A DNA stretch of 32,579 bases from Cyanobacteria bacterium QS_8_64_29 (GTDB taxonomy: Bacteria > Cyanobacteriota > Cyanobacteriia > Cyanobacteriales > Rubidibacteraceae), in the NCBI GenBank assembly GCA_003022125.1, contig PXQH01000009.1:1-32579 (forward strand), written 5' to 3'. This document shows positions 29,647 through 32,579 of this stretch, one piece after another (within the stretch, counting starts at the first letter, position 1; each line of letters opens with the position of its first letter). The notes below the pieces were generated by a model, which worked only from the letters and a program-made list of their open reading frames with translations, made no database searches and was not told the origin of the DNA. The translations under genes and the position numbers were made by a program.

Positions 29647-29721
29647 GCGATCACGCTTAGGCGGGACGGTACCCTCAAGCTAGCATCTGCCTGCCTACCC
29701 AGTTGCTGCAACGCAGCCCTC

Positions 29722-29825
29722 ATACCAATTCTCGTGGCTTGTGCACTAGATTGCGACCTCCAAAACTTCCTCAATATGGGAGTCATATTTTTTGAAAAGC
29801 GTGCATCCACTGCTCAAATTGGTAT
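29722..29825. mobile_element. MITE-like element, copy 1 (104 bp)
   Basis: A 104-bp unit bounded by ATACCAATT and AATTGGTAT, repeated in the same orientation at 31565-31668. By hand alignment 90 of 104 positions match with no gaps. It is too short to encode a transposase. Imperfect shared features inside are GTGCACTAGATT, CTCAATATGGGAGTCAT and AAGCGTGCATCC. This copy lies between the unknown 219-residue gene and the DUF350 gene, in their shared upstream space. No convincing target duplication is seen (flanks TC and CA). The 168 bases between it and the DUF350 gene hold a GCTGTCAGCT/GCTGTCAGC direct repeat and no gene. Confidence 0.85.
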
Positions 29826-29993
29826 CAAACCTATGCCACGGCAGCTCATTCCCATCTCGCGCGAGCGAGAGGAGGTTCTTAGCGGCAGCAGTTGGCTTGC
29901 AAGCCAGCCAATCGCCCAATTGCTGTCAGCTGCTGTCAGCAGGCCGCTGCTGTGCCAAAATAGGCGCGTTGTTTCCGATACCGAGTTGAGTTT

Positions 29994-30203
29994 ATGTTGG
30001 ATTTTCTTCAATCTGTTGGCATCAGTACAGGGTGGACGGTTATTGGCGTCCTGCTGCTGTTTGGATCGACGGTTCTGTTCGATCGCATTACACCACTCAA
30101 CTATCGGCAAGAGATTCACAATGGCAACGTCGCTGCTGCGGTCGTGATTGCCGCAATTATTCTATCTATGGGCGCCATCGCAGTAGCCAATCTGGCTACC
30201 TAA
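29994..30203 (+). CDS. DUF350-family small membrane protein
   Basis: A protein of 69 residues with two hydrophobic helices (about 13-29 and 47-66) around LFDRITPLNYRQEIHNGNVAAAVVIAAI. The motif D-x-L-T/I-P-LNYRQEI..GN-x-A-A-A is the mark of DUF350 (YjfL-like) repeats; this is a single-repeat member. DUF350 proteins of unknown biochemical role occur next to spermidine synthase and envelope-stress genes in many bacteria. Here a membrane-type spermidine synthase remnant lies 1.3 kb downstream on the same strand. No strong ribosome site is visible; the ATG at 29994 is set by homology. Confidence 0.8.
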   Translation: MLDFLQSVGISTGWTVIGVLLLFGSTVLFDRITPLNYRQEIHNGNVAAAVVIAAIILSMGAIAVANLAT

Positions 30204-30242
30204 TCAGCAGCCTGAGATACCAAATATTATCTTTCATAATTG

Positions 30243-31231
30243 ATGTCTGCTACAACTTACAAAACTTATCGTTTTATTGAGACAAGCTTAATTCTTTTTC
30301 CGATCTCGGCTGCTGCCATTCTGGCAACTTTCATACTGTCTTATTTGGGGCGACAGTCTTTGCTCTCCGAAACGGTGACTGCCCGCCCGATAGCCCGGCG
30401 AAACTAACGCTTCAGCGCGTTCCAGCCAATCGCCTCGGGGCGCTGCGCATTGACGTGCGCGCCCACGTTGCGAGCGACCGCTGGATCACTTACGAAGTGC
30501 AGCTGCGCGCGCGCGATGGCGACATCCTAGCTTCTGCCATCAAAAAAGGTTGGCATGAAACGGGCATTTGGCGCGAAGGCGGCGAGTCGGGGATGTGGGA
30601 AGAAAAGGATCTACGCGGCGGCTTTGATATAAAGCTAACTCAACAACAGGACATGCGACTGGCAATCGCCGTTCTTGACTACACCGATACGACTGGCGAA
30701 CCAGTTGAAGAGAAAGCCAGATTTGATGTCACGGTCCGCAATGGTGTTATCGACACGCGCTACCTGTGGGCCGGTCTCGCTGGAACCGCTGCCTTGGGCG
30801 TGCTAGCCGCGATAGCCCTTAATTTTACCGGGAAGCGTATTATTAACGCCTCTGCAAACGATAGCGATGTCAGCGCTCGAGGAGTGGTAGGCGGTCGGAA
30901 GTCTTTGGTCAAAGTCAAAGTTGTCGTCCTAGCGGACGAAAATGCACCGGGCGTGTTGCAGGTGCATCTCAACATTCGCGATCGCAACGGCGAGCTGGTC
31001 CAACAGGAGAGGCTCTCGGTCCTACTCAGATGGTTGAGAGAGGACGGCGAAATCCAAGGTGGGCGCGGGATCGCTCGGTATTTTGTGCTACTCGAGCCCC
31101 GGGATTCCTACGGTTTCTACGTTGAAACTGTCCCCGATGGTCCCGTCGATCGCGTCACGCTATTTGTCGACGATGGAGTGCGGACCCTAACGCCTATTGA
31201 GGTCCACCATCTGACAACCTCCGCAGCTTGA
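30243..31231 (+). pseudogene. Membrane-anchored protein of unknown function, apparent frameshift
   Basis: The long open frame ending at 31231 has no good start: its earliest start codon, GTG 30455, falls mid-domain. Coding-like sequence continues upstream as LRNGDCPPDSPAKLTLQRVP. In another frame, ATG 30243 gives a short polar start and a membrane helix (ETSLILFPISAAAILATFIL) that ends near the T/G run at 30344-30350. Adding one T there joins the two into about 330 residues: a cytoplasmic tip, helix, outer domain, second helix (about LWAGLAGTAALGVLAAIAL), then a beta-rich domain with VVVLADENAPGVLQVHLNIR. I know no named family. It lies between DUF350 and the small exported protein in the damaged polyamine cluster. 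If 258 residues from GTG is the real gene, no frameshift is needed. Confidence 0.55.
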
Positions 31232-31255
31232 GCGGTGAAACGCTAGGGAAAAGCC

Positions 31256-31489
31256 ATGCTAGTTCGCCTGTTTGCAATTGCAGCCCTAGCCATCTCCGTT
31301 ACCACGGTGTGGTTTGCCTGCACTGCCCGCTCGGCGCTGACGCTGCGCCAGGAGGGTGGCGATACGACCTATTGGCCGCGCCACGGAACCTATCCTTCAG
31401 GGTACTACCAAGGCGGTACCTGGATTATGCCCTCCAACCGCGCCCAATACCGCGGGTTTCGGGGTGGCGGTCCGGGCGCCGGCAAGTAA
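31256..31489 (+). CDS. Small exported Gly/Tyr-rich protein (77 aa)
   Basis: ATG 31256, with AGGGA about 8 bases upstream, begins a 77-residue protein. MLVRLFAIAALAISVTTVWF is a signal or anchor helix; a cysteine follows (ACTARS) but the context is not a clear lipobox. The mature part is rich in Gly, Tyr and Arg (TYPSGYYQGGTWIMP, QYRGFRGGGPGAGK) and probably disordered. It starts 24 bases after the preceding gene and just before the spermidine synthase remnant, so all were probably one operon with DUF350. Function unknown. Confidence 0.6.
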   Translation: MLVRLFAIAALAISVTTVWFACTARSALTLRQEGGDTTYWPRHGTYPSGYYQGGTWIMPSNRAQYRGFRGGGPGAGK

Positions 31490-31514
31490 CGGCTGAGGAC
31501 CCCATACTGCGCTC

Positions 31515-32482
31515 GTGAACGATGCCACACCGCCAACGCTGAACCGCTCGCAGCGCAACCTCTTATACCAATTCTCGTGGCTTGTGCACTAGATTTTGCC
31601 CCTCGAAACTCCCTCAATATGGGAGTCATGTTCTGTAGTAAGCGTGCATCCGCTGCTCAAATTGGTATAACCAGCAGCAGTCGCGGCTGCTGACGCGCTT
31701 TGTCCAGATCGAGCTCGCGATAGGGCCCCTGAGCGCGTTGCTCCCGCTGGGACTCTTCGCCCTTTTCGTCGCCGATGGCTATCTTTGGCTCGGCCTGGCC
31801 CTGGTCACGCTCGTCCTAGGCACGCTCGCGGGATTGGAGGTGCCGCTGCTAACGCGCGCGTTGGAGCAGGAGCGGGGCGTTCGCAACGCCATTGCCGGCG
31901 TGCTGGCGCTCGACTACCTGGGGGCCTTGATTGGGTCGCTGGCCTTTCCGCTGGTGTTGCTTCCACTGCTGGGGTTTTTTCCAGCTGCTGCCCTTATCGG
32001 CGCCTTGCCGGCTGGCATGGTGTTTTTATTGGGGCGATCACTGGTCGTGCTGCGGCAGTGGCGCTTCTGGGGGCTGGGTTTAAGTCTGGGCCTATGCCTG
32101 CTGGCCCCGCTGACCGTTCCCATCGGCAACGCGTTGGAGAGCAACCTGTACGATGCGCCCATCATCTCGCGCACTCAGTCCGAGTACCAGCGCATAGTCC
32201 TGACGCGCCAGCAGCACGACGTTCGCCTGTTTCTGGATGGTGACCTGCAACTGTCCACTACCGACGAGCACCGCTACCACGAAGTGTTCGTCCATCCCGC
32301 CTTACAAGCAGTTCCAAGCCCCAAACGCATTCTGATTTTAGGCGGCGGTGACGGCATGGCCCTGCGCGAGGTTTTGAAATGGAAGACCGTGGAAGAAGCC
32401 GTCGTCCTCGAACTCGATCCCGCCGTGGTGGCGCTAGCCAGCCAGCACCCGCTGCTAGCGCGCGCCAATGGGAATGCCTTTA
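31515..32482 (+). pseudogene. speE: Membrane-type spermidine synthase, interrupted at both ends
   Basis: Spermidine synthase moves an aminopropyl group from decarboxylated SAM to putrescine; this type carries an N-terminal membrane domain. GTG 31515 starts a plausible leader (NDATPPTLNRSQRNLL) that runs into the MITE at 31563 and stops. After the MITE, in another frame, RLLTRFVQIELAIGPLSALL begins the later helices, followed by GTLAGLEVPLLTRALEQ and LALDYLGALIGSL. The catalytic domain then starts: YDAPIISRTQSEYQRIVLTR, LFLDGDLQLSTTDEHRYHE, ILILGGGDGMALREVLK (SAM site) and VVLELDPAVV. It stops abruptly at ANGNAF, where an insertion element begins. The first helices are missing and the frame changes, so the MITE came with a deletion. 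The gene cannot be functional as it stands. Confidence 0.88.
31563..31670. mobile_element. MITE-like element, copy 2, inside speE
   Basis: The second copy of the 104-bp element, here with perfect 11-bp termini TTATACCAATT/AATTGGTATAA. It interrupts the spermidine synthase remnant after about 16 codons. The flanking TA on each side could be a TA target duplication (as for IS630/Tc1-type transposases) or part of the terminus; copy 1 does not share it, so the mobilising family is open. Confidence 0.88.
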
Positions 32483-32579
32483 GAGTGCCTAACAAAACTG
32501 GTAGGGATGAGGAGGGAGAGCTCCGGTCTATGCCATGGCCAAACCGCTCGTACCCAACGAACTCTGGGCCGAAATCGAG
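32483..32579 (+). mobile_element. Left end of an IS5-family-like insertion sequence (cut by window edge)
   Basis: speE coding sequence breaks off at about 32482, and a short non-coding leader starting GAGTGCCTAACAAAACTGG leads to a transposase start. TTAG at 32480-32483 fits the YTAR target preference of some IS5-group elements. The exact first base, the inverted repeat and the target duplication cannot be confirmed because the right end is outside the window. Confidence 0.7.
32535..32579 (+). CDS. IS5-family-like transposase, N-terminal 15 residues
   Basis: ATG 32535 reads MAKPLVPNELWAEIE, the typical start of IS5-family DDE transposases and their DUF4096 N-terminal domain (pattern PLxxxELWxxIEPLLP). 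GAGGAGGGAGAG about 16-25 bases upstream can serve as ribosome binding site. The remaining gene lies right of the window, so activity and subgroup cannot be judged. Confidence 0.75.
   Translation, partial: MAKPLVPNELWAEIE

Follow-up and report, generated by a model that had tools for sequence, protein, structure and literature searches.

The two short direct repeats near the right end of the window (the whole 32,579-nucleotide stretch of Cyanobacteria bacterium QS_8_64_29 that was analysed, from contig PXQH01000009.1) are copies of a 102-bp MITE, which is very probably moved in trans by an ISAcma28-like IS630 transposase of the same genome, with duplication of the target TNA (N being free). 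Their identity as MITE copies follows from 3-bp TNA target duplications and from a precise empty site, while the case for the transposase rests on the ends of a longer element.

The Repeat Pair in the Window

Two 104-nt units, at 29722-29825 and 31565-31668, both on the + strand, align without gaps at 90 of 104 positions (86.5%), with a longest common run of 31 nt. This agrees with the earlier note, drawn from the sequence letters, which had described an ungapped direct pair of equal length, about 87% identical, with common termini. Both units start with ATACCAATT and finish with AATTGGTAT; end pairs of this kind at such spacing occurred in none of 100 shuffles, and no other direct repeats of 40 nt or more occur within the window. 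The equal length of the two copies stands, but the figure of 104 bp falls to 102 bp once the target duplications are removed. The element proper, TACCAATT...AATTGGTA, occupies 29723-29824 and 31566-31667. As had been seen, the copies bracket a DUF350 gene, a frameshifted membrane gene and a small exported gene, and one copy is intergenic while the other lies in a gene, here recognized as spermidine-synthase-like. Copy 1 and the bracketed genes are laid out as follows:

29720..29722, + strand, left target-site duplication TCA of copy 1 (TCATACCAATT at 29720)
29723..29824, + strand, MITE copy 1, 102 bp, intergenic, upstream of the DUF350 gene (TACCAATT...AATTGGTA)
29825..29827, + strand, right target-site duplication TCA of copy 1 (TGATACCAATT on the - strand, 29817-29827)
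29994..30203, + strand, DUF350 membrane protein gene, context between the copies (PF03994, 5e-11)
30240..31231 (approximate), + strand, frameshifted membrane gene, context (ORFs 30240-30407 and 30455-31231)
31256..31489, + strand, 77-aa exported protein gene, context (78-aa counterpart in Phormidium willei)

The flanks of copy 1 are clean (TCA/TCA). At the place matching the frameshifted membrane gene, P. willei has a 353-aa gene. The window pair is unremarkable among the MITE copies of this genome, because close pairs are common there: 33 pairs lie within 1843 bp among 89 listed copies, against about 6.5 expected under a uniform spread.

A Dispersed Family with TNA Target Duplications

The genome itself (G000) is available as a 2.22-Mb draft in 69 contigs. 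The genome-wide search proposed in the earlier note favours a MITE, as it returned about 90 copies, dispersed and alike in their ends (90 matches to a sequence model built from 20 copies), 44 of them with perfect 9-nt ends. The element is short, lacks a transposase gene, and carries imperfect short inverted ends, TACCAATT/AATTGGTA, of the kind that delimit MITEs: at either end, TACCAATT is followed by 11 variable bases and TGCAC, the latter at the same offset in 60 of 64 left ends and 62 of 64 right ends.

Identical 3-bp flanks of the form TNA enclose 55 of the 64 full copies. The duplication is of constant length, a 2-bp duplication being found for one of these copies, and duplications of 1 or 4-7 bp for none. 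Nine of the 64 are without matching flanks, and seven of these nine still have TNA on both sides, which is expected if their halves stem from different insertions. An empty site was directly observed at the DNA level: a paralogous sequence in C64 (L067) is identical at 119 of 122 positions to the joined flanks of the copy at C47:17435, straight through the junction, where TGA occurs once, as precise insertion predicts. A second empty site, in an IS5-like gene common to C40 and C65, is covered by only 5 bases on one side. Dispersed copies, target duplications and the empty site bear out the proposal that the family has been mobile.

Another reading, named in the earlier note among those that would count against mobility, is that of a conserved RNA or regulatory element (a riboswitch, REP-like hairpin or terminator) kept at fixed positions. 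The repeat is indeed an imperfect palindrome with conserved ends and a conserved central CTCAATATGG, and the fold of one copy is better than those of its shuffles (z about -2.9). Nevertheless, this reading is already refuted by the TNA duplications and by the empty site. In addition, the copies are dispersed, in both orientations, in unrelated genes rather than at conserved positions, Rfam gave no match, the covariation term is near 0, as would not be expected of a structured RNA, and among 391 sampled genomes of the order the element is confined to its own genome and the sister genome G001. Its probability is next to negligible.

The sister genome holds two MITE relatives, about 80% identical to the consensus query and 76% to the window copy. 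The hits in G303 and G218 fall in an ATPase and a cyclase gene and were rejected as chance matches, and no related MITE copies were found in collections of phage, plasmid and viral contigs. In the collections searched the family is a new one, though of an ordinary kind. Like the MITEs of Anabaena sp. 90 and Nezha, to which it is likened by description and not by sequence, it is short, cyanobacterial and present in many copies. The Anabaena sp. 90 elements also interrupt genes, as here, but they have no matching IS in their genome (PMC3542288), whereas an IS with the same ends is present in this one. Some copies lack 5-10 nt of one tip, and natural truncation was considered for them and then dropped; since they stop at contig ends or at the starts of N runs, they are probably assembly scars.

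Insertions in Host Genes

With the frames reconstructed across the insertion sites, 32 of 180 aa or more are interrupted by full copies, and genes for a Na/H exchanger, a Na/Ca exchanger, PhzF, a secretin and TnpB are recognizable among them. Five copies are nested within about 850 bp (G000:C58:15705-16557), in a cluster that takes in a TnpB-like (Cas12f1-like TNB) gene and its surroundings. A few insertions, at L086 and L102 (G000:C42 and C2), keep in frame the long ORFs in which they lie, whose family is unknown, and lengthen them from 433 to 468 aa and from 624 to 659 aa.

These intragenic copies bear on a further alternative, in which the repeat is a protein-coding insert adding a 35-residue peptide in frame, after the manner of the Rickettsia palindromic elements, which are likewise about 100 bp long, intragenic and of a length that can keep the frame. 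The combined length of the MITE and its duplication, 105 bp, is divisible by three; 28 of 34 copies have one frame open (IPILVACALD...), and several intragenic copies are read through in frame. However, the open frame is not preferred: of the 32 cases, 13 are antisense, and those in sense orientation are spread over the three phases as 5, 9 and 5. The nonsynonymous/synonymous ratio of the open frame is 0.74 of expectation, compared with 0.90-1.13 in the other frames, and one MITE subfamily carries a TAG stop. Unlike the Rickettsia elements, the MITE shows no in-frame preference and has target duplications. The coding element was rejected on its weak signal and absent frame preference, and we judge it highly improbable. 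Neither a coding nor an RNA or regulatory role is supported for the repeat.

Copy 2 and the Spermidine-Synthase-Like Gene

The second copy in the window differs from the first in its flanks and in what surrounds it:

31539..31565, + strand, 5' remnant of the spermidine-synthase-like gene (LNRSQRNLL), left of copy 2 (tblastn, P. willei residues 40-48)
31563..31565, + strand, left flank TTA of copy 2, unlike the right flank
31566..31667, + strand, MITE copy 2, 102 bp, within the spermidine-synthase-like gene
31668..31670, + strand, right flank TAA of copy 2, unlike TTA
31669..32490, + strand, 3' part of the spermidine-synthase-like gene (tblastn, 66% identity, P. willei residues 109-382; PF01564)

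The match of the 5' remnant is short, with an E value of 0.45 by itself, and its place and order are those expected. The gene reads from LNRSQRNLL to the TTA flank and restarts at QQQ past TAA; the 60 residues in between (P. willei 49-108), which are present in four relatives (Phormidium, Geitlerinema), are absent. Since these 60 codons are missing where the flanks mismatch, about 180 bp appears to have been lost exactly at copy 2, and the TTA/TAA mismatch seems to mark this copy as chimeric or rearranged, and not as a clean insertion. Two insertions in the one gene may have recombined, which would remove about 180 bp and leave a single element with unlike flanks; alternatively, one insertion may have been followed by an adjacent deletion made by the transposase. 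The suggestion that direct pairs of the element can delete the DNA between them is likely supported to this extent, as copy 2 looks like such a product, although an assembly collapse would look the same.

Such a collapse would concern copy 2 only, and is compatible with the MITE reading: two nearby copies would have been merged in assembly, giving the unlike flanks and the missing 60 codons together. Many of the contigs of the draft end about 100 nt into a MITE copy, and several interior copies stop at that same point or at N runs. Against this, copy 1 is clean, and the sequences on the two sides of copy 2 come from one gene and lie in the correct order, which a real deletion between two insertions predicts likewise. 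An artefact at copy 2 is possible, if somewhat doubtful. An IS5-like fragment (MAKPLVPNELWAEIE...) that ends in an N run also interrupts this gene (window 32490-32579; L098, G000:C9:32300-33569), and, with MITE copy 2, the gene looks broken at at least two places.

An IS630-Type Element with Matching Ends

The earlier note had placed the mobilising transposase outside the window, which agrees with the finding, elsewhere in the same genome, of the ends of a likely IS630-family partner. Among the 157 TNATACCAATT termini of the genome, 153 were inspected in their loci, the other four being solitary and on contigs after C43; a subsequent search with an IS-end pattern found ends at C53 and C60, among those contigs. 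Several solitary TNATACCAATT termini at contig ends lead into a longer element, of which one end starts a gene (MTTVFNVDIAESPQQL...) and the other encodes ...TIRSLTNWKFIR. The pattern search located the same IS ends at C5, C18, C31, C34, C37, C53, C60, C65, C39 and C13, and at the contig ends of C5, C18, C31, C34, C37, C53 and C60 they read TACCAATT, 11 bases and TGCAC beside a TNA flank. Comparison of the MITE ends with IS ends, as had been proposed, therefore led to an IS630-type element with the same tip and the same spacing. A complete autonomous copy was not found in the assembled genome, the interior of the element being lost at contig breaks.

The relatives of this element encode IS630-family transposases. 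A related, decayed IS is nearly complete in G001, and its C-terminal part matches NF033545 (IS630), with DDE_3 just under the cut-off. A relative in G094 reaches 131.9 bits with NF033545 (cut-off 100), as an IS630-type DDE transposase should. In the genome itself, an IS630 remnant at C16 scores over the cut-off for PF13358, while a 46-aa fragment from the left end of its IS gave no hit in the transposase-model search. The closest named element is ISAcma28 (IS630, Acaryochloris marina), with a transposase 57% identical over a query that is a composite of IS630 remnants from this genome and its sister. The ISAcma28 copy on the A. marina plasmid pREC2 has TACCAATT tips like those of the MITE, and TTA/TTA flanks. 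ISAcma28-like elements make TNA duplications as seen here, but they measure about 1.13 kb and carry a transposase gene, whereas the MITE has 102 bp and an unrelated interior. In two IS630 relatives, L189 (G002:C3) and L199 (G094:C1), a pair of ORFs with the break after AFKK(N/T) encodes the transposase, an arrangement suggestive of programmed frameshifting.

The tips also vary in parallel. TCCC-type tips, an older subtype, are found in G001 at IS left ends and in both MITEs, and in the genome itself at the C16 IS630 remnant and in the divergent MITE C47:2827. No argument for the IS transposase as the mover of the MITE is stronger than this parallel variation. Some IS right ends of G001 have TAC-type instead of TCCC-type tips, which counts against the partnership. 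Beyond the first 8 bases, the similarity between MITE and IS compared with shuffled sequences gave p = 0.002 for left ends and p = 0.19 for right ends, so that the resemblance exceeds that of shuffled sequence for the left ends only. The MITE interior is not derived from that of the IS, even in shortened form.

A 3-bp TNA duplication is typical of IS1031-type (IS5-family) elements, and the genome contains IS5-like remnants (DUF4096, PF01609), so that a transposase of that family might be considered as the mover. The IS5-like elements found here nevertheless differ from the MITE at their ends (GGCGCGTTCGCAAA..., and a start near GCTAAGAGCGCC); the IS630 element, by contrast, shares the tip, the spacing and the TNA flank of the MITE. 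Mobilization by an IS5-family transposase is thus very unlikely.

With the IS630 partner, a DDE transposase of the ISAcma28-like group, resident in the same genome, would mobilise the MITE in trans. It would bind about 25 bp at each end of the MITE, and the excised element would be joined to 3-bp staggered cuts at TNA, leading to the duplication of TNA. We infer cut-and-paste chemistry, the expected route, by likeness to ISY100 of Synechocystis, which belongs, like the partner, to the IS630 DDE superfamily. ISY100 inserts at TA with a 2-bp duplication (PMC2170065), whereas the MITE has 3-bp TNA.

TNA Duplication among IS630 Relatives

The papers searched give a 2-bp TA target duplication for IS630/Tc1/mariner elements (PMC2170065), and TA for the whole IS630-Tc1-mariner infraclass, with the TATA of Sailor as the exception (PMC8533490). 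Sailor (DD82E) thus likewise departs from TA, but not to the TNA found here (PMC8533490). The partner group does not follow the 2-bp TA rule, TNA being seen in the MITE and in its IS630 relatives. A tip-free scan of single IS630 loci was noisy, and loci with a TACCAA-type tip pair were used instead: 20 such loci were available, mostly from other cyanobacterial genomes and with three copies contributed by a single genome, and 15 have identical 3-bp flanks. A different IS630 in G002, with TATGAA tips, has 3-bp duplications in seven of eight copies. Among the papers searched, none was found that names ISAcma28 or ties IS630 to TNA duplication.

These observations raise an evenly balanced possibility, namely that a widespread cyanobacterial branch of IS630/Tc1/mariner went from a 2-bp strand-transfer stagger at TA targets to a 3-bp stagger at TNA, a change that the 55 clean insertions of the MITE family would document.

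Significance

The genome, at 2.2 Mb compared with 2.8-4.8 Mb in its family and with many genes interrupted by MITE or IS copies, looks to be in decay. The MITE is one more IS-derived miniature element, and a useful marker of this apparently decaying cyanobacterial genome. What deserves to be followed up is the target duplication of the IS630-type partner group: the MITE, together with IS630 relatives of more than ten cyanobacterial genomes, duplicates TNA, against the published TA rule. If this is confirmed and proves absent from ISfinder, it would become possible to test directly how stagger length and target choice evolved in the superfamily.
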